Of a DNA stretch of 64,000 nt, positions 19,177 through 49,163 are shown piece by piece. Positions within the stretch are counted from its first letter, which is position 1. Every line of letters begins with the position of its first letter. The notes below the pieces were generated by a model. It searched no databases. It worked only from the letters and a program-made list of their open reading frames with translations, and was not told the origin of the DNA. Position numbers and translations under genes: made by a program. This stretch comes from a virus, in IMG/VR virus record IMGVR_UViG_3300044673_000278, positions 123,694 to 187,693 of that record, one strand, 5' to 3'.

Positions 19177-19184
19177 ATTAAATA
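19177..19184 (+). promoter_or_regulatory. Late promoter-like box ATTAAATA, 5 nt before ATG
   Basis: The TAAATA core ends exactly 5 nt before ATG 19190, and the ATG has no Shine-Dalgarno sequence (upstream is CACATTAAATAGACGC). With T4 late-promoter geometry the first transcribed base would be the A of the ATG. Confidence 0.45.
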
Positions 19185-19189
19185 GACGC

Positions 19190-20338
19190 ATGGAAACAGA
19201 TTTTTTAATTGCACAAGGCAATCAACATCGTAGCGATAGACAATATCACGAAGCACTAAAATGCTATGCTTTGGCATTTGTACAAGATCCTGAATCTTCA
19301 GCAGCATGGAACAACTACGGCAATGTCACAAGAGAAATGGGCTACCCCAAGCGTGCCGTACCGTTTTTGCAACATGCCATTGAATTAGATCCTACAAACA
19401 TCACTGCGCATTTTAATTTGGCAGTTTGCTATTTGTTGTCCGGTGACTATGCCCGTGGATGGCCTCAGTACGAATCGCGCTGGAACTATGAACACCTTGC
19501 TGGCACAGAACCTCAGTTTTCACAGCCACGTTGGCGCGGTGAATCACTACAAGGCAAAACTATTCTAGTAGTAGGCGAACAAGGACACGGTGATAACATA
19601 CAATTTGTACGCTTCCTTTGGAACTTGCACGTCATGGGTGCTCGAATCAAATTGCAAGTCACTGATGGACTAATCCCATTGTTGGGTCGTAGCAGCATTA
19701 TTGAACAGATAGGACGTTACAGCGACGACATGGGCGAGTTTGATTATTGGGTTCCGATCATGAGCATTCCGGGCGTGCTGGGTATTACCTTAGACACACT
19801 AGCAAAGCCTGTGAGTTATCTCAATGCTGACCCTGCGTTGATGCAGCAATGGCAACAAACACTGGGGCCGAAAACAAAACTGAGAATTGGTCTGTGTTGG
19901 AGCGGCCGCAGAGATAGTTGGCTCAATCAGCACAAAGCCATGCCGTTTGAGGATGTAGTTCGCATGATCGAAACCAATTCCCAATACGAATGGATCAATT
20001 TACAGTGCGATGCTACACCCGAAGAAGAAGCCAAGTTACTGGAACTAGGTGTAAAAACTTTCCCCGGCCATATTCAAAGCTTTGCTGAAACTGCTGCGTT
20101 GATCATGCACATGGATGTGGTTGTAAGTGTGGATACCGCAGTGGCGCACCTTGCAGGGGCTTTGGGTAGACCTCTGTGGCTAATGCTCAACAAGTACAGC
20201 ACAGACTGGCGTTGGTTGTTGGATCGAGATTCCAGTCCTTGGTATTCCAGTGCCCGTCTGTTCCGTCAAGACGAGTATGGTGTTTGGAATAATGCTATCA
20301 ACAAAGTAACACAATTTTTGTCGTGGTTTAAAGTATGA
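19190..20338 (+). CDS. TPR-containing glycosyltransferase (GT9/GT41-like)
   Basis: 382 aa. Residues ~1-105 contain TPR helices (AAWNNYGNVTREMGYPKRAV, then AHFNLAVCYLLSGDYARGW). The catalytic part carries KTILVVGEQGHGDNIQFVRF (~124-143), RIGLCWSGRRDSW (~230-245) and VVVSVDTAVAHLAGALGRPL (~310-330). The last is the nucleotide-sugar binding signature of heptosyltransferase-like and TPR-linked glycosyltransferases. It presumably moves a sugar onto a phage protein, DNA or host glycan; the acceptor is unknown. It overlaps the next gene by 4 nt (ATGA), forming a two-gene unit on the strand opposite its structural neighbours. Unlike most genes here it has no ribosome site, only a TAAATA box 5 nt upstream. 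Confidence 0.82.
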   Translation: METDFLIAQGNQHRSDRQYHEALKCYALAFVQDPESSAAWNNYGNVTREMGYPKRAVPFLQHAIELDPTNITAHFNLAVCYLLSGDYARGWPQYESRWNYEHLAGTEPQFSQPRWRGESLQGKTILVVGEQGHGDNIQFVRFLWNLHVMGARIKLQVTDGLIPLLGRSSIIEQIGRYSDDMGEFDYWVPIMSIPGVLGITLDTLAKPVSYLNADPALMQQWQQTLGPKTKLRIGLCWSGRRDSWLNQHKAMPFEDVVRMIETNSQYEWINLQCDATPEEEAKLLELGVKTFPGHIQSFAETAALIMHMDVVVSVDTAVAHLAGALGRPLWLMLNKYSTDWRWLLDRDSSPWYSSARLFRQDEYGVWNNAINKVTQFLSWFKV

Positions 20339-21399
20339 ATATCCAAGTTCTTGACGAGAAAAATATTCTAGGAACCAAATTTCACATGGCTCAGCAATAC
20401 ATCGAGTATTGTTCCCAGTTATTTGATTCACCTGAAATAACTTGGAGTACTGCCAAAGGAGAATTACTGGCCGTTACAAACATTGATCTACAAGAAAGAC
20501 TGACCATAGATTGGCATGACGTTAATTTAATCTTTGCAGAAACTTGCCAACAAATCTACGATTATTCGTTCAAATTAAACCCTGCCAAAGCATATGTGTT
20601 TATCACAGAAAGTGCTGCTGACTTCAAGGATTTACAAGAAAAGTTTTTTGGTATTTCAATCGTCAAACACTTTACAATATTCAACGAAGTAATTGACTAT
20701 GGCAAAGAGTTATTTGTCATGCAATCACATTTGGCTACAATAGAGCCAGCTAGGCACGAACCTGAGTTTGATTTTTTCTGTTTGGTGGGCAGGAAAAGCA
20801 CACTGAGAAGTCGTTTTGTTTCAAGACTGTCACAGCTTGATCTCAGTAAAAGCTTGGTAAAATATCACGGCGAAGTTGTTCCTGGATCGGGCGCACCGTT
20901 TGGTTACGATCAGTTTGATTATGCGTCGAAAAATTTCTATCGAGATTACTACATGGTCACGTCTGGTATGACTTTGTTGAGTAAAATTGTACAGCCAAAA
21001 CTTTACGATAATTTTCGATTCGAAGTACAATACGAAACAGACTCTCTAGAAAGTCACGGCTGGAGTATCAAAGAATATCATGTTACCGAAAAGACCATCA
21101 AGCCATTGATAATGAACAAACCTTGTTTAATGTACGGACCTTGGCAGTATCATCAATGGCTAGCATCGTACGGTGTAGATCTAGGGCACGGAAACTTTGA
21201 TTACGCTCAATTTGACAACATTCAAGATGATGCGCATCGAGCAGATGCAATGATACATTATCTAAAGAGCTTTGAAAACTATCAAGCGATAGTACCCGAT
21301 CAATCTTGTTTTGAAAAAAACATTTTTGGCTTGTACCGTTTGTCGTGCTGGACCAGAGAGAACGTCAGAGATTTTTATTCGTTTCTGAAAAACTCTTAA
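20335..21399 (+). CDS. Probable glycosyltransferase (exostosin-like C-terminus)
   Basis: 354 aa, coupled by an ATGA overlap to the TPR glycosyltransferase. Around residues 250-282 it reads TEKTIKPLIMNKPCLMYGP followed by a hydrophobic helix and SYGVDLGHGNFD. This EKT-x-KP-(L/I)-x8-PFL-x-G-x-G(F/V)D pattern is typical of the C-terminal half of exostosin/fucosyltransferase-like enzymes of viruses and bacteria. The N-terminal half (residues 1-130) has no recognisable motif. It probably works with its neighbour on the same glycan. Family assignment is moderate; substrate is unknown. Confidence 0.6.
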   Translation: MNIQVLDEKNILGTKFHMAQQYIEYCSQLFDSPEITWSTAKGELLAVTNIDLQERLTIDWHDVNLIFAETCQQIYDYSFKLNPAKAYVFITESAADFKDLQEKFFGISIVKHFTIFNEVIDYGKELFVMQSHLATIEPARHEPEFDFFCLVGRKSTLRSRFVSRLSQLDLSKSLVKYHGEVVPGSGAPFGYDQFDYASKNFYRDYYMVTSGMTLLSKIVQPKLYDNFRFEVQYETDSLESHGWSIKEYHVTEKTIKPLIMNKPCLMYGPWQYHQWLASYGVDLGHGNFDYAQFDNIQDDAHRADAMIHYLKSFENYQAIVPDQSCFEKNIFGLYRLSCWTRENVRDFYSFLKNS

Positions 21400-21408
21400 C
21401 CATACTGG

Positions 21409-21436
21409 TTGTAAATTTTTTCCAAGACAGTATAAT
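21409..21436 (+). promoter_or_regulatory. Sigma70-type promoter (TTGTAA, 16 nt, TATAAT)
   Basis: -35 TTGTAA at 21409-21414, a 16-nt spacer, and a perfect -10 TATAAT at 21431-21436. It lies in the gap after the glycosyltransferase pair and points to a terminator about 100 nt downstream, with no gene between. Confidence 0.5.
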
Positions 21437-21442
21437 TACAAC

Positions 21443-21547
21443 TGCGTGTCAACGCTTATTATCTATAGTAAAAGCAAGGTCGTTAAACTTATATTATCTG
21501 GCCCGCACTTCTCCTGGACTGACCGAACTGGATGTGCGGGCTTTCTT
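21443..21547 (+). ncRNA. Candidate small RNA, ~105 nt
   Basis: This stretch is bounded by the sigma70-type promoter at 21409-21436 and the terminator at 21501-21547. It holds no ORF with a ribosome site. The first ~55 nt are AT-rich and the 3' end is the strong terminator stem, as in many small RNAs. It matches no RNA family I recognise. It could instead be only the untranslated tail of the glycosyltransferase operon, with the TATAAT a coincidence. Confidence 0.4.
21501..21547 (+). terminator. Rho-independent terminator after the glycosyltransferase pair
   Basis: GCCCGCAC (21501-21508) pairs with GTGCGGGC (21534-21541) and is followed by TTTCTT. An inner TCC/GGA extends the stem. It faces the plus strand and ends both the glycosyltransferase operon and the possible small RNA. 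Confidence 0.75.
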
Positions 21548-21562
21548 ACGAGTTAAGTTTTA

Positions 21563-22111
21563 TTAACCAATGCGCCAAACACTACCGTCCGACCACACCG
21601 GCACAATATTGCTGCCACCGTCGGTGATCTGGGCACCAAAATTTCCTGCGGCTGCTAGATTGGCATCATTAGCAAATCCGCGGAGGCCAGCACCAAAAGT
21701 AGCAGGAGGAAGATTGTTCAAGGGCATTACGTCAAATATCATGTATTTGGTCGAGAGCTGTTCTAAGGTGCCAATGTTGTTGGCAATAATGTTGCCCGTA
21801 ACCGAGACATTGGCTGTTGCAGAGATGTTACCGCCAGTGATGTTGCCTGTGGTAGATATAGTATTAGATCCAAATGTGGCCAACAGTGTCACTACATTGG
21901 CATTGCCATAGGTGCCTCCAGTGGTGACAGCAGTTAATTGTCCAGAGTTGTTGCCTACATACAGCGGAGGGGGATCTTGAGTTAGATCAACTACCAGTTC
22001 GCCTGGGCGTGCATTGCCGTTATATTCTGCCAGTGTAACCTGCGCATTGTCTTTCATTACAGCACGACTTATGCCAGTGATATCATCATATGGTGGTGGA
22101 GGATTTGCCAT
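21563..22111 (-). CDS. Virion structural protein with short fibre-like segment (182 aa)
   Basis: The start MANPPPPYDDITGISRAVMK and the stretch NGNARPGELVVDLTQDPPPL are shared with structural proteins of aquatic T4-like phages. The middle (ISTTGNITGGNISATANVSV) is one short block of the same repeat used in the giant fibres. The C-terminus (GGSNIVPVWSDGSVWRIG) resembles fibre tip ends. It lies just after the major capsid gene but behind a terminator, so it has its own box (GGTAAATA, 5 nt before the ATG). No Shine-Dalgarno sequence is seen. A Met at residue 19 is an alternative start. Confidence 0.78.
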   Translation of the reverse strand: MANPPPPYDDITGISRAVMKDNAQVTLAEYNGNARPGELVVDLTQDPPPLYVGNNSGQLTAVTTGGTYGNANVVTLLATFGSNTISTTGNITGGNISATANVSVTGNIIANNIGTLEQLSTKYMIFDVMPLNNLPPATFGAGLRGFANDANLAAAGNFGAQITDGGSNIVPVWSDGSVWRIG

Positions 22112-22116
22112 GTTTA

Positions 22117-22124
22117 TATTTACC
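22117..22124 (-). promoter_or_regulatory. Late promoter-like box GGTAAATA, 5 nt before ATG
   Basis: The minus-strand box ends exactly 5 nt before ATG 22111, and there is no ribosome site between. It lies just after the gp23 terminator, as expected for a new transcription unit. Confidence 0.5.
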
Positions 22125-22134
22125 GAGTCAACAA

Positions 22135-22156
22135 AAAAGGCCCCGAAGGGCCTTTT
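22135..22156 (-). terminator. Rho-independent terminator after gp23
   Basis: AAAAGGCCC and GGGCCTTTT form a 9-bp stem with a TTCG tetraloop on the minus strand, followed by further T residues. It lies 25 nt after the gp23 stop. The stem would work in both directions, but only minus-strand transcription reaches it as a gene end. Confidence 0.9.
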
Positions 22157-22180
22157 GGATCGTGTAATCCAGCTGGTTGA

Positions 22181-23377
22181 TTAGCTGAAAGACAAGTTCT
22201 GTACAGCGATCTCACCAACGTAGTCGCCAGCGTTGCCGAAGCTGCTAGCAGTGTTGGTCAATTCGATGTAACCATAACGAGTCATGAAGCTCACGACTGG
22301 TTCGAATGTTGACGGATCCAGAACAACACCGCTGCTCATCAATGGGATGTATGGGCAGTAGAATGCTGGAGCGTCAGCTTCGCTGGAACCCTTGTAACCT
22401 ACGAGCACAGGAGTTGTGTCGCTGGCGTAAGAGTCAACAAACACACGCATAGAACCGTTCAGGGTACCAGCGAACTTGGTGTTTGTAGGAGCTTCGAAAG
22501 TACCTTCGGTGGTACGAGCGAAAGCAGAAGTAGTAGCACTTTGCAGTACTGTCAGAGCGGCTGAGCTAACAACGGCGTAGTTACCAGCGCCACGACGTGT
22601 ACGCTGAGCGATCAGGTTAGCAACACGGTTGATCAGAACGGCCAGAGCGGCGTGTTCGTCACCAACGAATGTAGCAGTACCAGAAACGGTAGCTTGGTTG
22701 TATGTGAACTCAGTAGAAGCTAGGCTGCGTAGGGACAGGAGAATCTCCTGGTCAATTTCAGCTGTAATTTCTTGTGCCAGAGCAGCCATGATTTCGGCTT
22801 CGACGTCAATACCGTGCATAGCTTGAGCGTCTTGGGCACTTTCAAATGTCCAACGAGCTTGCAGCTTACGGGTCTTGGCTTCAACAGCTTGCTTCAGGAT
22901 CTGAACGCTGATCTGCTTACCGCCGGTACCTTCCATGCTAGCAGTAGAACCGCCAGTGTAGCTAGTAGCTGTGCTAGTGTTTTGTGGAACAGTAGAGTAA
23001 GCTGTAGCAATGGTGAAGGGAGACAGAGCTTCCTGGCCAGCTGTTACAGAAGTAGCAGCCAAGCTGTTGTCGGTCAAGCTCTGAGCGTAACGAACACGCA
23101 GAGTGTGGATTTGACCAACAGGACCGGTCATGGGCTGAACGCCAACCAACTCGTTAGCAATAACGGTAGGCATAACACGACGAATAACTGGCAGAATCAC
23201 ACGGTTAAGTGTGGCGATGTTGCCAGCAGAGGTAGAACCTGCGGAAGCGTTTTCCTTCAGGTACTTGCGAGTGTTTTCGAGGATAACACTCATGCTATTG
23301 CGCTTAGTGCCGTTCAGACCTTCGAGCAGAGCTTCTTTGGTCTCGCCCCAGCGACTTTCAAGTAGTTCTTGTGACAT
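22181..23377 (-). CDS. gp23: Major capsid protein gp23
   Basis: 398 aa. Motifs of the T4 gp23 family are plain: LNRVILPVIRRVMPTVIANE, LVGVQPMTGPVGQIHTLRVR, QARWTFESAQDAQAMHGIDV and MTRYGYIELTN near the C-terminus. It is shorter than T4 gp23 (521 aa). Residues 40-42 (LKE, followed by NASAGSTSAG) fit the (L/I)xE cleavage consensus of the gp21 protease and would mark removal of a ~42-residue propeptide, an inference. It follows scaffold gp22 with a good AGGAG site (TATAGGAGACTTAAATG) and ends in a strong terminator. It forms the hexameric shell of the head. Confidence 0.97.
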   Translation of the reverse strand: MSQELLESRWGETKEALLEGLNGTKRNSMSVILENTRKYLKENASAGSTSAGNIATLNRVILPVIRRVMPTVIANELVGVQPMTGPVGQIHTLRVRYAQSLTDNSLAATSVTAGQEALSPFTIATAYSTVPQNTSTATSYTGGSTASMEGTGGKQISVQILKQAVEAKTRKLQARWTFESAQDAQAMHGIDVEAEIMAALAQEITAEIDQEILLSLRSLASTEFTYNQATVSGTATFVGDEHAALAVLINRVANLIAQRTRRGAGNYAVVSSAALTVLQSATTSAFARTTEGTFEAPTNTKFAGTLNGSMRVFVDSYASDTTPVLVGYKGSSEADAPAFYCPYIPLMSSGVVLDPSTFEPVVSFMTRYGYIELTNTASSFGNAGDYVGEIAVQNLSFS

Positions 23378-23399
23378 TTAAGTCTCCTATAATAAAAGA

Positions 23400-24491: not shown

Positions 24492-24503
24492 TCCTGATTC
24501 TCC

Positions 24504-25142
24504 TTAGATTTTAAGTTCTCGGATAAGGCGTTTTACTTCCTCGGCCAAGTACTTTTGCACTTTGTCGCTTTGACCAGACTCACGAGCAATTTCCAACACT
24601 CGGTGTCCGTGTTTCATATTCATGAGACCTTCGTACACTGCTGTGGGATAAGCATTGGGTGCGCTGGGTTGGGCAACCACATCAATAGTGACTATTTCAA
24701 AGTCACTAACATGTCCTGTTCTGTCATCAACGTTACCTGATCCGCGGCTGGAAACACCCAACTTGACACCACTTTGCAACAGGGTTTTAATCAGGTTGCC
24801 CATGGGTGTGGGTAGAATCTTGAGCTTGCCGCAACCGGCGTGGCCGTCCATCCACATGCCCTCAACCGAGTGACATACTCGGTCAAGGTTGATCTTGAGA
24901 TCGTCAGGATGGTCCACTTCACCTAATACAGAGTTTCCATTGCGAATTTGCTCGTTAATGGTTTCAACTGCCTTGATGATCTCGTGGCGTGGATAGATAC
25001 GTTCGTTTGCATTGCGCTTGTCGCCTTCAATGCAAATGCCCTTGAGATAAAGATTCTTACCGCCAGACACATCAGCTTCTTCAAGAACCTGAATGTTCGC
25101 CTGGACGAATGTAAGATCTTCTCTTAGGTATCTAGATGACAT
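24504..25142 (-). CDS. gp21: Prohead core protease gp21
   Basis: 212 aa, a serine protease of the T4 prohead protease family. GEVDHPD (residues 74-80) holds the catalytic His, and GVSSRGSG (129-136) holds the nucleophile Ser. RNANERIYPRHEI and DFEIVTIDVVAQPSAP are further family blocks. It cleaves the head core and gp23 after (L/I)xE. It starts 4 nt after the acidic core gene, with the ribosome site in that gene's end, and precedes gp22 as in T4. Confidence 0.95.
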   Translation of the reverse strand: MSSRYLREDLTFVQANIQVLEEADVSGGKNLYLKGICIEGDKRNANERIYPRHEIIKAVETINEQIRNGNSVLGEVDHPDDLKINLDRVCHSVEGMWMDGHAGCGKLKILPTPMGNLIKTLLQSGVKLGVSSRGSGNVDDRTGHVSDFEIVTIDVVAQPSAPNAYPTAVYEGLMNMKHGHRVLEIARESGQSDKVQKYLAEEVKRLIRELKI

Positions 25143-25146
25143 TTAA

Positions 25147-26013: not shown

Positions 26014-26044
26014 AGAGAAAACTCCTATAGGTAAAGTGTATTGT

Positions 26045-26052
26045 TATTTACA
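26045..26052 (-). promoter_or_regulatory. Late promoter-like box TGTAAATA
   Basis: Minus-strand TAAATA-core box 31 nt before the acidic core gene, which has a normal AGGAG site. The sequence around it (ATTGTTATTTACAAT on the plus strand) is a short imperfect palindrome. Confidence 0.4.
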
Positions 26053-26083
26053 ATAGAGGGAAAAAATACGCGGTTTAATCGGC

Positions 26084-26116: not shown

Positions 26117-26335
26117 TTACGCAATGGGCTGCGGTGGAGGTGCGTACTGTTGACGAATTTTCTTGAGCTTTTCTTTGTATTCAAAAGCTCGTACATCATT
26201 CATCTTTCGTAGCTTGTTGAGCTGTCGCAAAGTCAAACGAGTTTTACGCAGGTCATTTTTGGTAACCTGTGCATTGTCTTGACTTACGTCTTGATAGGCT
26301 TCGGGGGCCTTTTTCCAAAATTCTTGTAACAGCAT
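26117..26335 (-). CDS. Small conserved head-module protein (72 aa)
   Basis: 72 aa, basic and helical: RKTRLTLRQLNKLRKMNDVR and EYKEKLKKIRQQYAPPP. Small proteins of this type lie between gp20 and gp21 in aquatic T4-like phages, in the place of T4 gp67. Sequence alone does not show the function. It begins 9 nt after the gp20 stop region, with no Shine-Dalgarno sequence, and has a CATAAATA box exactly 5 nt before its ATG that overlaps the gp20 stop codon. Confidence 0.8.
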   Translation of the reverse strand: MLLQEFWKKAPEAYQDVSQDNAQVTKNDLRKTRLTLRQLNKLRKMNDVRAFEYKEKLKKIRQQYAPPPQPIA

Positions 26336-26340
26336 GACTT

Positions 26341-26348
26341 TATTTATG
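26341..26348 (-). promoter_or_regulatory. Late promoter-like box CATAAATA, 5 nt before ATG
   Basis: It matches the NATAAATA form of the T4-like late box. It overlaps the gp20 TAA stop and ends exactly 5 nt before ATG 26335. It could be chance, since TAA ATA arises easily after a stop codon, but the 5-nt spacing recurs at three other genes. Confidence 0.4.
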
Positions 26349-28140
26349 CGGGTGGGGGTGCGCCTGTGGCGCTAGCAGGAACTACACCGCCCGGGCCACC
26401 TGGGGCAGCAGCAGCGTCGACTCCGGGTGTGCCTGGTGTGCCTGGCTGCATTCCGGCCATTTCTGCACCAGCTTCGATGTCACTTTCCAGGCCGCCTGGA
26501 GTAATGCCCACAGAACGTAGATCCTGTCCTGAAGTGGTTTGCATTTCAGGTTGATCACGTTCTTCCATCCACATGTCTTCGTTTTCTTTGATCTCGTCTT
26601 CGGTGAGACCAAGGTAACGTTTGAGCAAGAAACGCTTGCTCATGTAAGGCAGTGGCTCTAAACTAGTAAATGCATTGATACGTGTAGTATCCAGCTCTGC
26701 TTGACGATAGCTGGCAAAGTTCTGCGGTGGGTTAAACTTCAGTGTAAACAGACCAGAGTCAATGTTGAATCCGCGCCACTTCAAGAACATCTTGAATTCG
26801 TCGTCTAACTTCTGTGCAATGTGTCCTTGTAGACGTTCGCAGTATTGATTGAAACGATATTCTTGAATCAATGCTGTGCCTACTTTGCCGTCGGCCATTG
26901 AGCGATCTGAGTCATCGGGGCCTGTGGGCAAGTAGCTAGAAGGCACACGCAGGCCACGTGCCATTTTGTTGTTGAAGTACTTTAGGTCGTCAATCTCGCC
27001 TAGGTTCTGTCCGCCGGGCAGAGTTTCAACTGAGCTGCCACGACCGTCTTGTGTTTGTGGAAAGAAGTAATCTTCGTTGATACTCAGTGGATTGTAGCTG
27101 GCATCCATCATGTTCTGTCCACCACCTGTTACAGTGGGGATTCTACGCTGGTGCATTTCGTTTTTCACACGTTCTACAAACGCCATAGCAAGGTGACTAG
27201 GCATGTTGCCCACGTCAATCTTGAAGATTCTACGCTCTGGAGCACGGCTCACACGATAGATAAGAATTGAGTCTTCTAGCAGTTCTTTTTGCTTGAATAC
27301 CTTGTAAATCTGTTCCAGTACTGATCGTCCAAAAGGCCAAAATACGTCAAGACCTTCGTTCAAACTCATGTGAACCACGTGCTTGGCATCAATACAAGTT
27401 TCGTTCATGGCAGTCATAAAGCGGCTGTTGCCCACACCGCCACCTACACCGCCGTTGGGCATGGTATAGTTTGCTGAACCAGAGATTGTGCCTGTCACAG
27501 GGTTGGTCATGTAGTCTGTGGTTGTTTTTGCAGCCACAGTCATGTTTTGGAAGTTGGGATTGATGTCACGAATCACATACTGCTCAGGGCGCTTGCCTTC
27601 TGATTCGTTTACAATGATTCGCATGACCTTTGACATGTCTACCCAGAACATTTCAAAAGTTTCTGGGTCACGCACAAATACCTGATCTCCGTACTTTATA
27701 GTATTACGGAACAGTTTGAAAATTCTGTTGTCTAGTTGGTTGATTTTGACCCACTGCTGTAGCTGCTTGCGGATAATGCTGACTTCGTTGTCAGTGGGCT
27801 TGTCTTTGTAATCTACAGCAAAAGGTGTGCCGTTGTCTTCGTTAATCTGTGTGGAGAATTCAGCAATGATGTCTAAGCAAGCATTGATTTCTGAATCCAT
27901 GTCCATGTTTTCGTATTGGTTGTATCGCTCAATACGGTTGGGGTGGCCAGAATAAACTTCGGGAAGTCTACTGGCATAGTTGCGGAATACAAAGTCCGGG
28001 GGCATGCCGCCAGTGCCGTCGTTTTTGCCGTAACCGGGCAGACCGTATTGATTGCTGCCCGAAATGGGACTCATCACGCCCGATGTGTCTGCTACTTTGA
28101 AGTATTTGCGCCAGCCGCCGCTTGATCTTGGTTCTGCCAT
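26344..28140 (-). CDS. gp20: Portal vertex protein gp20
   Basis: 598 aa (T4 gp20 is 524). Family blocks are clear: NMDMDSEINACLDIIAEFST (~78-97), TIKYGDQVFVRDPETFEMFW, ILIYRVSRAPERRIFKIDVG, and LPGGQNLGEIDDLKYFNNKM with the downstream ARGLRVPSSYL. The C-terminal ~60 residues are a Pro/Gly/Ala-rich tail (GTPGTPGVDAAAAPGGPGGV). It forms the dodecameric head portal that nucleates assembly and binds the terminase. It heads the capsid cluster; a GGTAAATA box lies 7 nt before the ATG and no Shine-Dalgarno sequence is visible. Confidence 0.97.
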   Translation of the reverse strand: MAEPRSSGGWRKYFKVADTSGVMSPISGSNQYGLPGYGKNDGTGGMPPDFVFRNYASRLPEVYSGHPNRIERYNQYENMDMDSEINACLDIIAEFSTQINEDNGTPFAVDYKDKPTDNEVSIIRKQLQQWVKINQLDNRIFKLFRNTIKYGDQVFVRDPETFEMFWVDMSKVMRIIVNESEGKRPEQYVIRDINPNFQNMTVAAKTTTDYMTNPVTGTISGSANYTMPNGGVGGGVGNSRFMTAMNETCIDAKHVVHMSLNEGLDVFWPFGRSVLEQIYKVFKQKELLEDSILIYRVSRAPERRIFKIDVGNMPSHLAMAFVERVKNEMHQRRIPTVTGGGQNMMDASYNPLSINEDYFFPQTQDGRGSSVETLPGGQNLGEIDDLKYFNNKMARGLRVPSSYLPTGPDDSDRSMADGKVGTALIQEYRFNQYCERLQGHIAQKLDDEFKMFLKWRGFNIDSGLFTLKFNPPQNFASYRQAELDTTRINAFTSLEPLPYMSKRFLLKRYLGLTEDEIKENEDMWMEERDQPEMQTTSGQDLRSVGITPGGLESDIEAGAEMAGMQPGTPGTPGVDAAAAPGGPGGVVPASATGAPPPA

Positions 28141-28147: not shown

Positions 28148-28155
28148 TATTTACC
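28148..28155 (-). promoter_or_regulatory. Late promoter-like box GGTAAATA, 7 nt before ATG
   Basis: Minus-strand box in the 16-nt gap between the tape-measure-like gene and gp20. It ends 7 nt before ATG 28140. No ribosome site is seen between. Confidence 0.45.
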
Positions 28156-31100: not shown

Positions 31101-31270
31101 TTGACTGCCAGGGCGCCCAAGGCCACAACCACACGATCCACGCTGCGAACCATGCGTTCGGTGCCGTCCACTGCGTTCTTCGGAGACGTAGCCCCTGTGC
31201 CGCTGATGTTTTGCAGCACAGGAATCAACTGACGCATCTGTTCAACTAAGTCTCTTAATTCTTGATCCAT
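28157..31270 (-). CDS. Tape-measure-like tail protein with lysozyme-like domain
   Basis: 1037 aa. Residues ~70-165 are a charged coiled coil (KLDEEEKERQAAIDKLEEEA). Hydrophobic helices follow at ~235-290 (ASFFTPAGPMANIIKWGMRA, ALLGLGTAAISATLKV). After an Ala/Thr/Pro linker (~680-720), residues ~775-900 form a lysozyme/transglycosylase-like domain: IGKAESGGNYN with the likely catalytic Glu, MTIREVLDFQRNM, TAVGKYQIVQKTLQGLL. Near the C-terminus GPMTGYPAVLHGKEAVIPL is a motif found in many tape-measure proteins. It probably spans the tail tube and opens the cell wall during injection, inferred from domains. It heads the minus-strand head operon. Conventional T4 gp29 has no such domain. Confidence 0.8.
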   Translation of the reverse strand: MDQELRDLVEQMRQLIPVLQNISGTGATSPKNAVDGTERMVRSVDRVVVALGALAVKLDTSKKNRVTEQEAIEKFTKAVEKTAGKLDEEEKERQAAIDKLEEEAKAREEAIRKSKLSQEQLIKEEREQAQQRAKAETEARSKNVRRQAEDLNKAQASSAVMFDAFAASGSASELLKTRFFDLAGDSIAAQTGLRVLGAAGQGATQSLKLFATGLLDGKQGAELSAKAVSEFAKPLLELGSLASNILTIASFFTPAGPMANIIKWGMRAGAALLGLGTAAISATLKVNEMAAKQLDAQLKSFNELSRGGIAVENGIDGIIDAVQTLGMTMSEIEQFNKLIVENNRNLAIMGGTSQLGAKAFTKVAGDLTKGQFGRELEYMGITMQEQREVTLSYMSILARTGQLQLNNTNKLVESSANYIRELDLAAQLTGTTRKDQQEAREAALAETRFRAALTQAMKEGNVAEINRLKRVQEVASMYRKTLGEEAFVGALQLGASRGALTTEAATQLELSTGFTSLIEDTNLTVAQVYDRSVKTAVAQADSLASINAIVGDIKGFQIASVPLREDEARQAQLRKAAEARGFTGPDAVIQFVEAVKDERIKVDKNTKDLIDANRAQRAATMTMERGISQFNIAAEIHETASKTFADAVSTFGDIIGTQVPGGTPVYDGGTASAAGKSAPAVPAPSSTKSGTAAGAAAATTIDAKTAQAALQEATAKRVKITEEKGAASPEARAARIAEFKARRQAERAGAAEMSARARVGQETPLAGERPTTSATRILDIIGKAESGGNYNILVGGKVNPELTSMTIREVLDFQRNMIAQGHESTAVGKYQIVQKTLQGLLNQGVVTPNETFSPGTQDKLAIALLNEKGFQKFQSGKMSAEQFADAIAQVWAGLPLSSGVSAAQGVGSNKATISRQEVLTALSDAPKARDGGMFSGPMTGYPAVLHGKEAVIPLKNGAVPVSLPSLDELVSSNRAVDAQVQVLRNEMGSMMRELTNAMIAMKDSGSQQRMIELLESISRNQQTTATASTRMAQLASN

Positions 31271-39203: not shown

Positions 39204-40088
39204 TTACTCATCCAAGCTAGATACAACCGGTCCGGACATTTCTGCTGCACTTTTGCCCCCGGCGTTTTGGCGAGTCCAACTTGGATTCAATCCGTTGATT
39301 TCCAAAATGTCGTCGCGAATGTTCTGCATCTTTTTCTCAATGTTGAGGATTCTGGTAAAGCTGTTGGTGATTGCAGCAGTGTAATACGCAAACGGGTTTT
39401 GACTCTTGCTTTCGTCAAACTGCAAACCAATTTGACTGAGCTGTAGCAGGGCCTGACCGCGCATTTCTTCGTTGTAGGTATAGCCGCGCCAGTTAGAACG
39501 GGTAGCATAGCGTTCGCACAGTTTCATAAACATCATGGCCAACTTGCGAGTCATGTTGCCGTGATCTCTACAGTATTCACCGGTTTCCAAATCGCCTTTC
39601 CAGTGACTCTTGCCCACAATGTAAGGCACTTTGTCGGCGTCAATACGGTAGTGAAAAAACGGGGGGAAGTTCAGTCGCACATGTGTTGGGTCCAACACTG
39701 GCTCTTCCACTAGGTCGTCTAGCACTGGATCAGCATCGTCCAAATCCAAGATGTCTTCGAGCTTTTTGCGCTTGGGAGCATTTTTGGGCACTTTTTTTGG
39801 TGCCATGGGTATGTGATCCCATGTAGTAACACGAAACACTAGATCTGTGTTTTCAATCTTTTTGGGATCGATTATTTCGCCAGTTTCGCGTTTGATACGG
39901 TCAGCACGGTTGCGACGAGCTTCGGCAATGGTACGCTGATTGATCTTGTCCACTGAGGGTAGAATAATGTCGTACTGGTGATCTAGCACGGGATCTCGGT
40001 AGCTGCAATATGTGTTTTTGCTGAGATGGATTTCTTTGAGAATGTCTCTGTTGTTTAAGTAATTGACCTTTTTTGCTGGTTCTAGCAT
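39204..40088 (-). CDS. gp55: Late sigma factor gp55
   Basis: 294 aa from ATG 40088. The region RSNWRGYTYNEEMRGQALLQ, then LQFDESKSQNPFAYYTAAIT and NSFTRILNIEKKMQNIRDDI, is the conserved sigma region-2-like core of T4 gp55. The open frame extends to 40202, but ATG 40088 is chosen because AGGAG lies 10 nt upstream and the sigma70-type promoter (40117-40144) would otherwise be inside the gene. T4 gp55 directs host RNA polymerase, with the gp45 clamp and gp33, to TATAAATA late promoters, which are present in this window. The acidic LDLDDADPVLDDLVEEPVLD segment is unusual. Confidence 0.94.
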   Translation of the reverse strand: MLEPAKKVNYLNNRDILKEIHLSKNTYCSYRDPVLDHQYDIILPSVDKINQRTIAEARRNRADRIKRETGEIIDPKKIENTDLVFRVTTWDHIPMAPKKVPKNAPKRKKLEDILDLDDADPVLDDLVEEPVLDPTHVRLNFPPFFHYRIDADKVPYIVGKSHWKGDLETGEYCRDHGNMTRKLAMMFMKLCERYATRSNWRGYTYNEEMRGQALLQLSQIGLQFDESKSQNPFAYYTAAITNSFTRILNIEKKMQNIRDDILEINGLNPSWTRQNAGGKSAAEMSGPVVSSLDE

Positions 40089-40116
40089 TGGGGGTAGTCT
40101 CCTGGGATATGTACTT

Positions 40117-40144
40117 ATTGTACTACAAAAGTGTGGCTTGTCAA
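40117..40144 (-). promoter_or_regulatory. Strong sigma70-type promoter for gp55-gp47-gp46
   Basis: -35 TTGACA (40144-40139), a 16-nt spacer and -10 TACAAT (40122-40117) on the minus strand. Transcription would start near 40110, giving a short leader with AGGAG before ATG 40088. This is an early, host-polymerase promoter. Confidence 0.8.
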
Positions 40145-40174
40145 CCTTTCTTAAACTATGCCGATAATTTTTTG

Positions 40175-40182
40175 GGTAAATA
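40175..40182 (+). promoter_or_regulatory. Late promoter-like box GGTAAATA for the baseplate operon
   Basis: Plus-strand box 18 nt before ATG 40201, with an AGGA ribosome site between. It is back to back with the early promoter of the gp55 operon. Confidence 0.55.
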
Positions 40183-40200
40183 AGGTATAGGAATACAAAC

Positions 40201-42195
40201 ATGGGTTACGATGCAAAAAAGGCGGAAACGTTTAACAAACTGCGACAGGCTGGCGTTTCAGAAGATCAGGCACTAGCTCAGGCTGGTATCACTGACGCTG
40301 ACATAGGCAATTACGCCCTGGGCAGCAACGGCCAAATGGGTGCGCTGAACATCGGCGGCGGCAAAGTTGCTGGGGTTGATTATGAAAAGTTATCACCTGC
40401 TGAACTTCGTGAGCAAGCTCGTTTTGATCAAGGTCTCAAGTCAGTTGACTACGATGAAACCGCCAACGCACCGCCTAAGCCAACAACACCAATCAACTAT
40501 ACCACAACCAGCACAGAAACTGTAAGCGGTGGTGGATCTACTACTATTGTTGCAGGCCCTAGACAATCCAATGCAACCAGTCAAGCACTGGGCAGCGCCT
40601 ATGATGCAAAAAATGCCGAGTACAATCAATTTGTCAAAGACAATCCCAGCGACTTTGCTAGACGCCGCCAAGGCCTTCCGCCCCTGACTCCCCAAGAGGC
40701 GCAGCAAAGACAAGCTCGCTTGGATCAGCTCAATCAAGAAAAAGAAACACTGAAGAATCGACAAATTGATGCTGAAACACCAGGCACACCCACAGTAGTT
40801 ACTACACCCAACACAACCACAACCACGACCACAGTGACGTCGGGACGAGTGGCACCCAATGAACCGGTGAACATTCAAAACGATCCAGCAGTATTCAATC
40901 AGGCTGAACAACAACTTGATAATCAAACTCCTCAGGCAGCTACTGTAAACACAGTTAGCGCACCAACCGAAGTTGACACAGGTGCAGACGCAGGTGAAAT
41001 CACAGTGGCACAAGAACCGCCTACGTTTGAACCTCAAAGCATTGACCCCCAGGAAGATCCCTTTGAAGCCGAACGATTACGTATAGAGCAAGAGTTTGAC
41101 AATCCTGCTCCGGTGCTCACAGCTGAAGATGTACCGCCATTGGATCCTGAAGTACAGGCACAGATTGAACGTGAGCAAGAACAATTTCGTGCTGATTTTG
41201 CAGTGCAGTCAGCACAGGCCGATGCTGTTGATCTCGACAATGATCCAGCAGTAAGAGAATTTGCAGAGCAGTCGCGACTGGAAGCAGAACAACGCTTTAA
41301 CGAAATGTCTGATCCTGATGGGGCATACGAAGCAGAAACCAAAGCTAAACTAGCGGAATTACAAAAACAATCCACTATACAAGATCGCTTGGGTCAAAAT
41401 GCCAAAGGCGACTGGCGTGTACGTTTGCGCATTGCACCTGAAGCCACATATCTATATCAGGACCCAAGTAACACGTTGCTGGCTCCACTCAAAGTCAGTG
41501 ACGGTGTGGTATTCCCGTATACTCCTATCATCAATACCAACTATGCTGCCAAATATGATGCATATGATCTAACGCACTCTAACTATCGTGGATATTTCTA
41601 TCGCGGTAGCCAGGTCAGCGACATCAATATTCAAGCTACATTTACAGCACAAGACACTCGAGAAGCTGAGTATGTGTTGGCAGTGATACACTTTTTTAGA
41701 TCTGCTACCAAGATGTTCTATGGGCAGGACAGAGAGCGCGGCGCCCCGCCTCCACTGGTATACCTACGTGGTTATGGAGAATATCAATTCAATGACCACG
41801 CCTGTGTAATTTCTAACTTTCAGTACAACTTGCCCAATGATGTAGACTACATCTCTATAACCCCCAACAACATTGGATTGAATATGAGCAACCGTCTTGC
41901 TCAAGTAGGTTCGTCGCCTACTAGCACACTAAGCTCTGCTGTGAATCGCTTGAAGAATTTGTACAATGCAGTATCTGGTCAACCTGGCGTACCGAGAGGT
42001 GCCAAACCCGGAGAGCGTGTAGAACTTGGCACAGTGTCTCAAACAGTTAACAAAACTGGTCAGTCTAGCTACGTGCCTACCAAGATCGATCTCAGCATTA
42101 CACTGTTGCCTGTGCAAACTCGCAGTCAAGTTAGCAAGCAGTTCAGTGTTAAAGAATTTAGCAATGGCAACTTATTGAAGAAAGGATTCTGGTAA
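40201..42195 (+). CDS. gp48-like tail tube/baseplate protein with long N-terminal extension
   Basis: 664 aa. Residues ~390-560 match the T4 gp48/gp54 tail-tube-associated baseplate family: VRLRIAPEATYLYQDPSN, VVFPYTPIINTNYAAKYDAY, FYRGSQVSDINIQATFTAQD, AVIHFFRSATKMFYGQDRER, VISNFQYNLPNDVDYISITP. The first ~390 residues are low-complexity (Pro/Thr/Gln/Glu/Asp-rich, runs of Thr near 200-215) and absent from T4 gp48 (364 aa). In T4 gp48 caps the baseplate hub and starts tail tube growth. It opens the plus-strand baseplate operon; the stop overlaps the next ATG (TAATG). Confidence 0.82.
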   Translation: MGYDAKKAETFNKLRQAGVSEDQALAQAGITDADIGNYALGSNGQMGALNIGGGKVAGVDYEKLSPAELREQARFDQGLKSVDYDETANAPPKPTTPINYTTTSTETVSGGGSTTIVAGPRQSNATSQALGSAYDAKNAEYNQFVKDNPSDFARRRQGLPPLTPQEAQQRQARLDQLNQEKETLKNRQIDAETPGTPTVVTTPNTTTTTTTVTSGRVAPNEPVNIQNDPAVFNQAEQQLDNQTPQAATVNTVSAPTEVDTGADAGEITVAQEPPTFEPQSIDPQEDPFEAERLRIEQEFDNPAPVLTAEDVPPLDPEVQAQIEREQEQFRADFAVQSAQADAVDLDNDPAVREFAEQSRLEAEQRFNEMSDPDGAYEAETKAKLAELQKQSTIQDRLGQNAKGDWRVRLRIAPEATYLYQDPSNTLLAPLKVSDGVVFPYTPIINTNYAAKYDAYDLTHSNYRGYFYRGSQVSDINIQATFTAQDTREAEYVLAVIHFFRSATKMFYGQDRERGAPPPLVYLRGYGEYQFNDHACVISNFQYNLPNDVDYISITPNNIGLNMSNRLAQVGSSPTSTLSSAVNRLKNLYNAVSGQPGVPRGAKPGERVELGTVSQTVNKTGQSSYVPTKIDLSITLLPVQTRSQVSKQFSVKEFSNGNLLKKGFW

Positions 42196-42494: not shown

Positions 42495-42497
42495 TCA

Positions 42498-45400: not shown

Positions 45401-45644
45401 AAACGTCACAGCAACACCTGTCAGTAGCGGAGAGTTTTCTGCTCCTACGGCCGAATCTGGTGCAGTTTCTCCACTGCCTCCTGCTCAACCGGTAACTAGT
45501 AATGGTGCAACAGTGACTCGACCAGCAACTAATAGTACCGCAACAGCAAATCAATCTGGTGCAGATACAGCAAGGCTGAGACGAGCAGGACAAGCAACAG
45601 CTGGTGCTCTTAACTTGCCCCAACAAGGCGCTAGAGATTATTAA
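42498..45644 (+). CDS. Large baseplate/hub-associated structural protein (1048 aa)
   Basis: Residues ~1-75 form a coiled coil (LQRRREQLFAERDRLESERD). A Pro/Thr/Ala-rich linker follows to ~180, then beta-rich blocks (NPFFPNDFYIDTITIENVPL, TQLKFTVIEPANITLLDCMY, SFLWYHIAMSVQQLGYDFKR, RFRYP-like PQPKFRGVVKSYPYWFTGQN). The last ~170 residues are again low-complexity (Ala/Thr/Ser/Pro). It stands between gp53 and the gp5-like spike; in T4 gp27 forms a torus around gp5, so a hub role is likely, but I see no sequence match to gp27. It may be conserved only in aquatic T4-like phages. Confidence 0.75.
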   Translation: MANPAVEIANLQRRREQLFAERDRLESERDALIAKARIQSQGGDREGATTLRDLAARIETQLNGIEEQIGNLSTQIGILEQQQTRQDKEEQPQTTVSGPAPPTEDPTTKQVDAASNAADVNTNSGDPGDPGPAAIAKKGDNSAQDDNPQTANTSALGQPVATTAATPVNSPASKPIVPQPNILDRFASYTYQAAVYLLTPEQLNALQTSQKKSVNGYNLLFQSGGAPNNIGGPQAAPTSQTNTSSSDGVDATAGTPVASGPDAGRNPFFPNDFYIDTITIENVPLGKGTMAAHGSTQLKFTVIEPANITLLDCMYQAVQNLQPKSGGGKGPVNYAAACYLMVIRFYGYDEQGRLQKAGFLTENSSLTDPNAAIEKYIPFRIKNINWEVSNRLVSYEFDCQPIGQIVAGGTRRGTIPADVEISGQTVGELLVGSVPANNASATAQTGLRADENQTQAETNRLAGQASAPPKAAAAQQKSALRTGIIGAMNAQQQKLLKMNEVEIADEYEIVFATGAEKIRDATVTKPGSTVNKGATDMGPAPQQNPSGLSPDKGAVKQNSRNQGITAGMQLLQVIDLAIRNSNYITDQATTVITEGSDGKSEANGTANSTSFLWYHIAMSVQQLGYDFKRRDFAYRVRYTILPYAPQDFQSQYFPQPKFRGVVKSYPYWFTGQNTAVLDYRASFNKMYHLTVSGSSAETSLLAKSRQDYVTSMRDLPFVQYQARSTESSMGAAGRANELAANAAEYLYNPADNGQAEMTIIGDPAWIQQGSSIGQLDPKNINYDPFNPDGTINFDTNDVLFEIVWQRPEDYDLGTGLADPYARTQATFGDRQPRQSVIYRAINVVSEFRQGRFQQKLKGVLYRYPVPGKKSDADTTASKATGGSETGLDASGRQTSASDTRVQGRSNQSLAVQLRTGVNLNSTAGAGRGIVAGPTAEELAAYSDAKSAQTAAARLSSSATPSARPAPTPNVTATPVSSGEFSAPTAESGAVSPLPPAQPVTSNGATVTRPATNSTATANQSGADTARLRRAGQATAGALNLPQQGARDY

Positions 45645-45653
45645 GGACAAACA

Positions 45654-47159
45654 ATGGCACAAGAAACGGAACGCAGTAGAGGTCGGCCGCAGAATTACAA
45701 GTTAGATCGCGGCGGAGTACCTGCGGAACCAGGTCCATTTATTGGTATAGTAATGAACAACGTAGACCCTGCCCGATCTGGCAGACTACAAGTGTACATC
45801 GAAGCGTTCGGTACCGGGGATATCAACGATTCTAGCAAATGGGTACGTGTAAGATACTTGCCGCCATTTTACGGTGCTACACCTGCTGGCAAGACACCCG
45901 GCACAGGGCCCGGAACATATCCAGGTAATCAAAACAGTTATGGCATGTGGTTTACTCCGCCAGACATTGGTGTCAAAGTACTGTGCTTCTTTGTCAACGG
46001 TGACAGAAGCGAAGGTGGATACTATGTTGGTGTAGTACCCGAAAATGGTGTAAGTCACATGGTTCCTGCCATTGGTGCAGAAGCCAACTACATTGTAGGC
46101 AACAAAAACCAAGAAAGTTATTTTGCTGATAGCCCGTTGTTGCCTGTGACAGAAATCAATACCAACAACAAACAGCTAGACAACGCTGGCAGATTTTACG
46201 ATCAAGCCAAACCAGTTCACGGTGTTGTAGCGTCAGCAATGTTCCAGCAAGGACTAAACAACGACGTTGAACGTGGACCTGTGCGCAGTAGCAGTCAGCG
46301 CGAATCTCCGTCTGCGGTATTTGGAATCAGCACACCGGGTGTGGCAGTTTATCAAGGCGGCTTGACTCCACAAGATATACGAGAAAAACTCAACGCAGGT
46401 GAAGTAAAGCCTTCTGATGTGGGTGTAATTGGACGCATGGGCGGTCATACCTTGGTCATGGACGACGGCGACATAGACGGCAACAATCAAATGTTGCGTT
46501 TGCGCACAGCCAAAGGTCATCAAATCACCATGAATGACACAGGTAACTTCTTGTACATCATTCATGCCAACGGGCAAACTTGGATTGAACTAGGGGTAGA
46601 AGGCACAGTTGATGTGTTCAGCACTAACTCTGTGAACATACGTACACAGGGAGATATCAACTTGCATGCCGACCGTGACATCAACATGTACGCTGGTAGA
46701 GATTTCAAAGTCAAAGCCAATGCCAACATCACCATGGAAGCAGTGGTCAACACCACAATTACGGCACAAGCAGATTTGAAACTGTACAGCAAAGCCACCA
46801 TTGGAGTCAAAGCCGATGGATCATTGGCATTGAACAGCGAAGGCGGCTCATGGGCCGCTGGCGGCAGTTTGATCGTGAGTGCAGGTGGAATTGACCTCAA
46901 TGGTCCTGCTGCTCCTGCTGTGGAAGCGCCGCGCCCATTGCAAAAAACCAAGTTAGATGATACTGCATTTGATAACCTCAAAGGCTGGCAAGTTGAAAAA
47001 GAAATGCTAGAAAGCATTGTGGGACGAGCACCCACACACGAACCATACCCATATCACAACAAAGGTGTGGACGTTGAAGTTGCGTTTGAAGAAGGAACAC
47101 CAAGTCCGCCGCCAGGCGCACCGCCTGTTCCTGCTGGTGTAGAGATTGTGAGGGTATAA
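45654..47159 (+). CDS. gp5: gp5-like baseplate spike without lysozyme domain
   Basis: 501 aa. Residues ~25-150 are the gp5 OB-fold (FIGIVMNNVDPARSGRLQVY, WVRVRYLPPFYG, MWFTPPDIGVKVLCFFVNGD). Residues ~295-430 are the beta-helical spike, with 8-residue-like periodicity (VEGTVDVFSTNSVNIRTQGD, INLHADRDINMYAGRDFKVK). T4 gp5 (575 aa) carries a lysozyme domain between these parts; here that stretch (150-290) has no lysozyme motif. A lysozyme-like domain instead occurs in the tape-measure-like protein at 28157. An AAGGA site precedes the ATG. It is the membrane-piercing needle at the tail tip, inferred by homology. Confidence 0.88.
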   Translation: MAQETERSRGRPQNYKLDRGGVPAEPGPFIGIVMNNVDPARSGRLQVYIEAFGTGDINDSSKWVRVRYLPPFYGATPAGKTPGTGPGTYPGNQNSYGMWFTPPDIGVKVLCFFVNGDRSEGGYYVGVVPENGVSHMVPAIGAEANYIVGNKNQESYFADSPLLPVTEINTNNKQLDNAGRFYDQAKPVHGVVASAMFQQGLNNDVERGPVRSSSQRESPSAVFGISTPGVAVYQGGLTPQDIREKLNAGEVKPSDVGVIGRMGGHTLVMDDGDIDGNNQMLRLRTAKGHQITMNDTGNFLYIIHANGQTWIELGVEGTVDVFSTNSVNIRTQGDINLHADRDINMYAGRDFKVKANANITMEAVVNTTITAQADLKLYSKATIGVKADGSLALNSEGGSWAAGGSLIVSAGGIDLNGPAAPAVEAPRPLQKTKLDDTAFDNLKGWQVEKEMLESIVGRAPTHEPYPYHNKGVDVEVAFEEGTPSPPPGAPPVPAGVEIVRV

Positions 47160-47160
47160 A

Positions 47161-48777
47161 ATGGGCAGTTTTGTCTTTAATTTACCAACAGCTGGTGCAG
47201 CAAATCTTGGTGCCAATATTGATGCCAATTTGTACGCCAAGACCAAAGATTCTGATTTGACCTATGGCGGCGACGATACCATTGTGTGGGACAGAATCGA
47301 TGCTGAACGACAGCGTCGAGGATTACCAGGGCTAGCAGCAATAGGTTCGCCTCGTCCACCAGAAGAAGAAACGCCTACAACTTCTGATTCAGGCGGCGGA
47401 ACTTTTGAAGTCAAAGGGCCACCTGGCATGACCTTTGAACAAGCCAAAGCCATATTTGATCAACAAGTTGCTGCTGGCAGTTTTGTGGGATTCAAACCCG
47501 GTGACGTGTTGAACGCAGCAAGTCAAGCCGCTGCTGGCCTGCCTGGCGCAGCATCACAACTGACTCAGTCTCTAACTGGCACTACCAGTATAATCAACGG
47601 TTCTGTGATCAACAACGCTGTTGGAAAAATTGGAGGACAAGTATCGCAAGCAGTTAATCAAGCAGTGTCTGTGGCCAAGCAAGCTGTGAGCACAGTGACT
47701 GGCGTGCTGAGTAAAGTTCCTGTAACCGACGGAATTAACACCGCAGACTTTGCAAAACAAGTACCTGCGTTGACATCCATGGGCAGTTTGACCGCAGTAG
47801 ATGTTAGGGCAGGCCTAGCACAAGCATCCAAATTGGTAGGACAACCCGCTGACAAGATTACTGACGCTGTGGGAGTTGGCAAGTTTGGGCTCGATGCTAC
47901 TCAACTAGAAGCAGCAGGTGTTCTCAAACCAGGTGTAGCAGCACAGTATCTGCAAAGTGGCGCTAACTCTTTGACCAGTGTGCTAAAAAGTCCCACAGTG
48001 TTTACGGGCAAAGACGGTATAAAGTCGCTGACAGATCTGTTGAAGTCAGATTCAAAACAAAACGCAATACAACAAAACTTAATGGCTCAAGGACTCAGTG
48101 GATTAAAACAAGTGGGCATACCCACTGACAGTTTGAATCCTTCTGCCCTCACTGGCACAGTATTAAACGCAGCCAAAAGCCTACCTAACACAGTTGATTG
48201 GGCTAAAGGACTGCCATTGCCGCCGGGGGTAAAGACATCATTTGACACTGTGGCTAGAGACTCTGCTTTTGCCGTGGATTTTGCCAAGCAAAAAGTTGAC
48301 AACAGTTTGAAACAAGAGATTGTACCTACACCAGCCAGCGACACAGTCAACAGAGAAACACTGAATGCAGCAGCCACCAGAGTAGTAGGCAATGACAAAG
48401 TGCCGCCTGTGAGTTACAGCAGCAAGACCACACAAAGAACGCCAAGAGAACTTGACGCTGCAATATCTGTGATTCTCAACAATATAAACATTTTGATAGA
48501 TGCCAGCATTGTGGTAATGAGTAAATCTGACCGCACACGAGCAGAAACCAACAGTTACAACGCTGATATTAGAAATCTTGAATTGCTGATTGCTGACTTG
48601 CAAGCAGCCGATGGACAACTGCTGGAAATTGTTAGAGAATCCAACGCACTTGAACCGCCGTTCCCAGCCATTACAGCAAGAGCTGAAACAATAATAGAAA
48701 AAGCCAAAAAAGCCATTGCAGTTATACAAAGTGCAATAGATTCTTTACGCAGGACTGTGGCTAACTTATCAGCCTAA
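47161..48777 (+). CDS. Virion-associated helical protein of unknown function (538 aa)
   Basis: It follows the spike gene by 1 nt. Residues ~85-115 (MTFEQAKAIFDQQVAAGSFV) resemble a small helical binding module seen in other phage baseplate proteins. Residues 120-400 are Ala/Ser/Val-rich amphipathic helices (VSQAVNQAVSVAKQAVSTVT). The C-terminal ~110 residues form a coiled coil (ELDAAISVILNNINILIDAS, ETIIEKAKKAIAVIQSAIDS). No enzyme motif is seen. By position it is a baseplate or tail protein, perhaps a hub plug; that is inference. The stop codon overlaps a late-type box for gp25. Confidence 0.75.
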   Translation: MGSFVFNLPTAGAANLGANIDANLYAKTKDSDLTYGGDDTIVWDRIDAERQRRGLPGLAAIGSPRPPEEETPTTSDSGGGTFEVKGPPGMTFEQAKAIFDQQVAAGSFVGFKPGDVLNAASQAAAGLPGAASQLTQSLTGTTSIINGSVINNAVGKIGGQVSQAVNQAVSVAKQAVSTVTGVLSKVPVTDGINTADFAKQVPALTSMGSLTAVDVRAGLAQASKLVGQPADKITDAVGVGKFGLDATQLEAAGVLKPGVAAQYLQSGANSLTSVLKSPTVFTGKDGIKSLTDLLKSDSKQNAIQQNLMAQGLSGLKQVGIPTDSLNPSALTGTVLNAAKSLPNTVDWAKGLPLPPGVKTSFDTVARDSAFAVDFAKQKVDNSLKQEIVPTPASDTVNRETLNAAATRVVGNDKVPPVSYSSKTTQRTPRELDAAISVILNNINILIDASIVVMSKSDRTRAETNSYNADIRNLELLIADLQAADGQLLEIVRESNALEPPFPAITARAETIIEKAKKAIAVIQSAIDSLRRTVANLSA

Positions 48778-48783
48778 TAAATA
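48776..48783 (+). promoter_or_regulatory. Late promoter-like box AATAAATA, 5 nt before gp25 ATG
   Basis: NATAAATA form, overlapping the TAA of the previous gene and ending exactly 5 nt before ATG 48789. No Shine-Dalgarno sequence precedes the ATG. Confidence 0.45.
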
Positions 48784-48788
48784 TTGCT

Positions 48789-49163
48789 ATGACTACATTT
48801 ATCGGCTTCAACACTATCAATCAATTCAAAAAGTTTACACTCACAGACTTTGCATTGATTCAGCGCGACCTGTTGAATGCCTTTAACATACGTCAAGGCG
48901 AACTTCCAGGCCGTCCTGCATATGGCACTGTGATGTGGGACTTCTTGTTTGAAAATCAAATTGAAGAATTAGCCAACAACATTCGCGCCGAAGTAGAGCG
49001 TGTGGTATCTGGCGATCCTAGAATTGTGGTATCAGACATTCAAATATTTCCGCAGCAAAACGGCATTTTGCTACAGATACAAGTCACAGTGGTGCCCACA
49101 GCCAACGCTGAAATACTCAGTATCTTTTTTGACCTACAACAACGTTCCGCTTCCTACGTATAA
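48789..49163 (+). CDS. gp25: Baseplate wedge protein gp25
   Basis: 124 aa, the usual size (T4 132). FTLTDFALIQRDLLNAFNIR, QGELPGRPAYGTVMWDFLFE and VERVVSGDPRIVVSDIQIFP are the GPW/gp25 family blocks. gp25 joins the wedge to the first sheath ring and is conserved in all contractile tail machines. It lacks a ribosome site; a late-type box is 5 nt upstream. A hairpin follows the stop. Confidence 0.95.
   Translation: MTTFIGFNTINQFKKFTLTDFALIQRDLLNAFNIRQGELPGRPAYGTVMWDFLFENQIEELANNIRAEVERVVSGDPRIVVSDIQIFPQQNGILLQIQVTVVPTANAEILSIFFDLQQRSASYV

Follow-up and report, generated by a model that had tools for sequence, protein, structure and literature searches.

Two architectures of TAAATA late promoters in a T4-type jumbo phage, one of them probably leaderless or nearly so

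Phage T4 provides the textbook example of late transcription; its late promoters are well known, as are leaderless mRNAs. The late mRNAs of T4-type phages are usually regarded as leadered and driven by a Shine-Dalgarno (SD) sequence. Among bacteria, Deinococcus has leaderless mRNAs, and the lambda cI repressor is a phage protein with a leaderless mRNA. In the leaderless mRNAs of mycobacteria, a -10-type element lies a few nucleotides upstream of the AUG and no SD is present (PMC4633059), and one paper describes phage transcripts as often leaderless (PMC5312081). The T4 late box spans positions -13 to -6 relative to the transcription start (PMC1524935). We analyzed a window of 64,000 nucleotides, comprising bases 123694-187693 of a virus record of 251,693 bp; positions below refer to the window unless given as genome positions. 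The phage resembles the T4 gp55/gp33/gp45 late promoter system (TATAAATA) in the core motif, in possessing a gp55-family sigma factor and in the location of boxes upstream of structural genes (PMC1524935, PMC2988020). In T4, S-PM2 and KVP40, however, the late boxes lie further upstream, and an SD core accompanies 26 of the 30 far-box genes of T4. The phage and its relatives also do not match the full octamer TATAAATA, as its second base is mostly A or G in this clade. Here, the TAAATA boxes fall into a near class, ending 4-7 nt before the ATG, and a far class, about 15 nt or more upstream. We consider it likely that these are two architectures of one set of late promoters and that the near class gives leaderless or nearly leaderless mRNAs, although the 5' ends, the gp55 dependence and the leaderless translation are inferred. 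Unlike the bacterial and lambda cI cases, the phage would employ a phage late promoter for about 20 late genes, including those for virion parts, alongside leadered genes that share the box and depend on an SD.

Late boxes and gene starts in the window

The preliminary description of this DNA had placed a late box 5 nt before the ATG of four genes and 7 nt before that of a fifth, all of them without an SD sequence. We found all five gaps as described and no SD at any of the five genes. On the plus strand, the box cacATTAAATAgacgc-ATG (19179-19184) precedes the ATG at 19190 by 5 nt, where the gene of a TPR/heptosyltransferase-like protein of 382 residues begins (19190-20338). The box of its orthologues is located at a distance of 5 nt in four genomes (G001, G003, G004 and G013) and of 4 nt in two (G007 and G008). 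The upstream neighbor of this gene is divergent and 137 nt away, which leaves no possibility of translational coupling. The second plus-strand case is the gp25-like baseplate wedge gene (48789-49163), with the box AATAAATAttgct-ATG at 48778-48783, also 5 nt before the ATG.

The other three genes lie on the minus strand. The box GGTAAATAtaaac-ATG (22117-22122) ends 5 nt before the ATG at 22111 of a gene for 182 residues without a PHROG match (21563-22111); in G006 and G008, the box of the orthologues is 23-24 nt away and accompanied by an SD. Just upstream of this box and after the major head gene, we noticed a hairpin with a T-run, ggcccttcggggccttttttg (22132-22152, minus strand), by direct reading of the sequence, as the pattern scan did not list it. 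It looks like a terminator of the major head gene. The box CATAAATAaagtc-ATG (26341-26346) overlaps the stop codon of the portal gene and lies 5 nt before the ATG at 26335 of a 72-residue protein of unknown function (26117-26335, phrog_13986). The portal protein gp20 itself (26344-28140, phrog_213) has the box GGTAAATAagtcacc-ATG at 28148-28153, 7 nt before its ATG at 28140, from which a leader of 1-3 nt is inferred.

Most genes with more distant boxes had been reported to carry an SD. This applies to five of the six comparison genes named, with boxes 17-31 nt away. Three are on the minus strand: 14463 (box 14486-14491, 22 nt, with AGAGGA at long spacing), 17899 (17917-17922, 17 nt, AAAGGA) and 26013 (26045-26050, 31 nt, AGGAG). 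The two plus-strand genes are 40201 (40177-40182, 18 nt, AGGA) and the gp6-like baseplate wedge gene at 49209 (49185-49190, 18 nt, GAGG). The sixth gene, at 19052, has AAGGAG as its SD, but its box is 88 nt distant. The divergent pair 31270/31321, with a box 30 nt upstream of each gene and only weak SDs, forms an exception. With 16 copies in the window vs 28.4 in shuffled sequences, TAAATA is underrepresented, and the majority of the copies are found directly upstream of genes. One further gap-5 match (62040-62053, minus strand) does not mark the start of a gene but lies antisense within a giant ORF. An unidentified ORF with no fewer than 3,687 codons follows the gp25 and gp6-like baseplate genes, occupies 52940-64000 and continues past the window end.

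A late sigma factor of the gp55 family is encoded on the minus strand at 39204-40202 (phrog_12791, 1e-75; phrog_234, 4e-23). The dependence of the near-class promoters on it is inferred from the motif alone. Besides the portal protein, the gp25-like wedge and virion structural proteins, near-class genes encode a radical SAM protein, glycosyltransferase-like proteins, a cytidylyltransferase-like protein and endonucleases, and the class thus spans more than one functional category. Outside the window, two divergent genes at genome positions 70479 (minus) and 70510 (plus; piece L012) are separated by 31 nt with back-to-back boxes at near-class gaps of 5 and 6 nt, leaving little space for any leader.

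Spacing, Shine-Dalgarno sequences and conservation among relatives

The spacing in the whole record is bimodal. An ATG follows at a gap of 5 nt in 12 of the 87 TAAATA copies and at gaps of 4, 6 and 7 nt in 4 copies each; gaps of 8-16 nt are almost empty, and gaps of 17 and 18 nt occur 6 times each. For the 306 mechanically called genes of the phage, among which some small ORFs are uncertain, a box lies at 4-7 nt in 20 genes, vs 1.4 expected when the 20 nt upstream of each gene are shuffled (P 9e-17). At the gene level no box was found at 8-13 nt, and 28 boxes lie at 14-35 nt. The start codon at 4-7 nt is ATG in 20 cases and GTG or TTG in one, and the relatives are alike in this respect.

Eight relatives, identified through matches to the portal protein or the ribosomal protein bS21, display the same pattern, with a near-class excess in each genome (P 1e-8 to 1e-20). 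The pooled histogram of eight genomes contains 26, 36, 14 and 20 boxes at 4, 5, 6 and 7 nt, respectively, a total of 8 at 8-13 nt, and 18 and 16 at 17 and 18 nt. The spacing peak predicted for related genomes is therefore present in all nine genomes of the clade; the peak is indeed at 5 nt, but the class as a whole extends from 4 to 7 nt and is not restricted to exactly 5 nt as had been stated. When every hexamer 4-7 nt before ATG was scored, the 14 highest-ranking words were all SD words except TAAATA, which occurred 116 times vs 14.5 expected. The base preceding TAAATA in the far class is A in 49% and G in 34% of cases. TAAGTA occurs in the clade as a minor box variant, with 17 near copies, none with an SD, and 24 far copies, 13 with an SD.

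The link between a near box and a missing SD, also proposed beforehand, holds in the relatives. An SD core within -16 to -5 was detected in 2 of the 125 near genes vs 118 of the 157 far genes of the nine genomes. An alternative count over eight genomes with a slightly different window gave 5/96 vs 98/121 (Fisher 3e-32). Far-class SDs mostly start at least 5 nt past the box, that is, approximately at the transcription start, so that the shortest leaders consist only of an SD and its spacer.

The spacing is conserved although the intervening bases are not. The portal box lies exactly 7 nt before the ATG in 75 of 79 loci, or 54 of 58 distinct upstream sequences, while the seven spacer bases vary. 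Three portal relatives of 83-84% identity (L049, L070 and L102) have no TAAATA box directly ahead of the portal gene and may regulate it differently from the other relatives. The gap of 5 nt is kept in nine of nine genomes for the 72-residue protein and in seven genomes for the cytidylyltransferase-like gene, and gp25 is near-class (4-6 nt) in six genomes. Five ortholog groups contain members of both classes. Three of them (the groups of 70479, 145804 and 62080) are natural switches, in which the near members lack an SD and the far members mostly possess one. The other two are not clean: one mixes paralogues, and the far members of the other mostly lack a clear SD.

Transcription start register and competing explanations

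The bases between box and ATG provide a hint as to where transcription begins. Of the 36 genes with a gap of 5 nt, 33 have a pyrimidine at -1, vs 59% of far genes and 45% of those lacking a box (Fisher 4e-8 against all others). In the far promoters, no ATG constrains the sequence. A pyrimidine followed by A, with +1 at box+5 or box+6, was present in 77 of 114 of them, compared with 39 and 12 at two control offsets. Genes with a gap of 7 nt have A at box+5 in 19 of 20 cases, many of which are portal orthologues and hence not all independent. With this register, +1 would coincide with the A of the AUG at gaps of 4-5 nt, and a leader of at most 3 nt would remain at gaps of 6-7 nt, so that these genes are not strictly leaderless. 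The mRNAs of gap-7 genes, including that of the portal protein, probably start as ACY-AUG, judging from the sequence. The pyrimidine at -1 and the matching signature at box+5/+6 of the leadered promoters strengthen the leaderless reading, which remains a prediction from sequence. As a separate observation on the near class of the clade, alanine at codon 2 is encoded by GCA in 15 of 17 cases, and by GCA in about half elsewhere, without removal of gene relatedness.

We propose that the gp55-family sigma factor would recognize TAAATA late promoters that come in two fixed arrangements. A near-class box, ending 4-7 nt before the ATG, would direct initiation to the A of the AUG (gaps of 4-5 nt) or 1-3 nt earlier (gaps of 6-7 nt). 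The resulting mRNA would be leaderless or almost so and would not need an SD, presumably because the ribosome recognizes the 5'-terminal AUG. A far-class box, about 15 nt or more upstream, would yield a leader just sufficient for an SD. Intermediate leaders might be avoided because they suit neither initiation mode: the range of 8-13 nt would be empty since leaders of 4-9 nt are too short for an SD and yet too long to be leaderless.

The absence of an SD could also reflect coupling to, or re-initiation from, the upstream gene, with the box merely squeezed into a short intergenic space. Indeed, 62 of 130 near genes begin within 25 nt of an upstream gene on the same strand, and the distance to the preceding neighbor is only 16 nt for the portal gene, 8 nt for the gene of 72 residues and 11 nt for gp25. 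Yet no SD occurs where coupling is impossible, in 0 of the 44 near genes with a divergent upstream gene, whereas 25 of 42 far genes in this arrangement have one. The same holds at gaps above 60 nt (0/18 near vs 26/29 far genes), and the terminator-like hairpin ahead of the 22111 box likewise speaks against coupling. The divergent neighbors rule out translational coupling as the cause of the missing SD, and we regard this explanation as very unlikely.

Another reading, for which the lack of mapped 5' ends leaves room, accepts the boxes as real late promoters but assumes that transcription starts elsewhere, or that translation proceeds mainly from longer transcripts through an SD-independent, AT-rich region. 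SD-independent initiation occurs in many bacteria. It would nevertheless leave unexplained the fixed spacing of 4-7 nt, the empty range of 8-13 nt, the pyrimidine at -1 and the pyrimidine-A at box+5/+6, and we consider it unlikely. We also give practically no weight to chance or faulty gene models as the origin of the pattern, even though TAAATA is a common word, the starts were called mechanically and some small ORFs are doubtful. The excess has a probability of about 1e-16 in the phage genome alone, and the spacing remains exact across relatives despite changed spacers. Depositors' start codons coincide with ours at many sites of the pelagiphage HTVC008M and several of Xanthomonas phage XacN1, and an in-frame downstream start with an SD within the first 40 codons exists in only 5 of 94 near genes. 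Initiation at or next to the AUG from the near-class box thus remains our preferred explanation.

Other phage lineages and translation factors

The near class is scattered among more distant T4-type lineages. TAAATA was found 4-7 nt before a called ATG in no case in T4 (2.3 expected), S-PM2 or KVP40, and once in RaK2 (4.0 expected). The four near matches in P-SSM2 were discarded, as they do not exceed chance and have A at -1. HTVC008M has 12 near genes vs 1.95 expected, ten of them at exactly 5 nt, and XacN1 has 18 vs 1.9, or about 15 without the duplicates of the terminal repeats. The signal is weak in Mosig (six genes, all at 5 nt, P 0.03) and not significant in Melnitz (three genes). HTVC008M, Mosig and XacN1 thus resemble our phage in having boxes at 4-7 nt without an SD, mostly at exactly 5 nt in the pelagiphages, although they belong to distant lineages. 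A near-class box precedes gp25 in the clade of our phage as well as in HTVC008M (5 nt before the start at 31132) and XacN1 (6 nt before the start at 199971), in the latter two with starts chosen by the depositors; in KVP40 and Melnitz, gp25 has a far box and an SD. Judged without a tree, so patchy an occurrence suggests that the near class was gained separately or lost repeatedly. Late-promoter prediction in pelagimyophages was described as "unsuccessful" and no leaderless class was reported (PMC7029224), nor was one in the account of XacN1, which contains no promoter analysis (PMC5852040). Our literature search, which was limited and left out many subscription papers and all preprints, did not find a leaderless class in gp55-type late regulons.

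It is possible, but in our opinion rather less than probable, that several T4-type lineages separately evolved a leaderless late regulon in which only the own late promoter yields efficiently translated mRNA and read-through remains largely silent. If so, RNA reading through from early or middle promoters would have no SD for these genes, including gp25 in three lineages, and late translation would be controlled in a promoter-locked form; any such regulatory purpose is inferred. A systematic leaderless class in gp55-type regulons, kept across a very abundant group of environmental phages and present in the cultured HTVC008M and XacN1, would mean that the geometry of a promoter is tied directly to how translation begins. 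Whether lytic phages use leaderless mRNA thereby becomes a testable question. Gene callers that rely on an SD, and promoter searches, can overlook start codons and late genes that TAAATA 4-7 nt before an ATG identifies.

The phage encodes bS21 on the minus strand at genome positions 40812-41036 (L011:1813-2037); this gene has a strong SD and belongs to the far class, its late box lying at a distance of 24 nt. The protein is also encoded in larger relatives, HTVC008M, Mosig, Melnitz and Atu_ph07; a match in CAKLQF020000002 was left out, as it resembled bacterial DNA. Phages encoding bS21 and a proposed role of the protein in late translation have already been published (PMC9723584). Its presence in near-class phages suggested modified ribosomes, but we rejected the idea that bS21 is required: XacN1 lacks it despite its near class, Atu_ph07 has bS21 without a near-class excess in 188 kb, and SCTP-2 and PA5oct also have bS21 and no enrichment. 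Nor did bS21 inform about the host, the closest cellular matches being at most 67% and from mixed MAGs. A phage-encoded IF3 does not offer an explanation either, since only Atu_ph07 carries one among the phages searched, and a phage initiator tRNA is not apparent, as the only CAU tRNA looks like an elongator by its G1:C72 pair. This tRNA belongs to a cluster of 33 tRNA genes near the record end (L021:7338-16761). The Agrobacterium phage Atu_ph07 (MF403008 244-747, L460), which carries both IF3 and bS21, is the best-scoring isolate by portal protein among the records listed.
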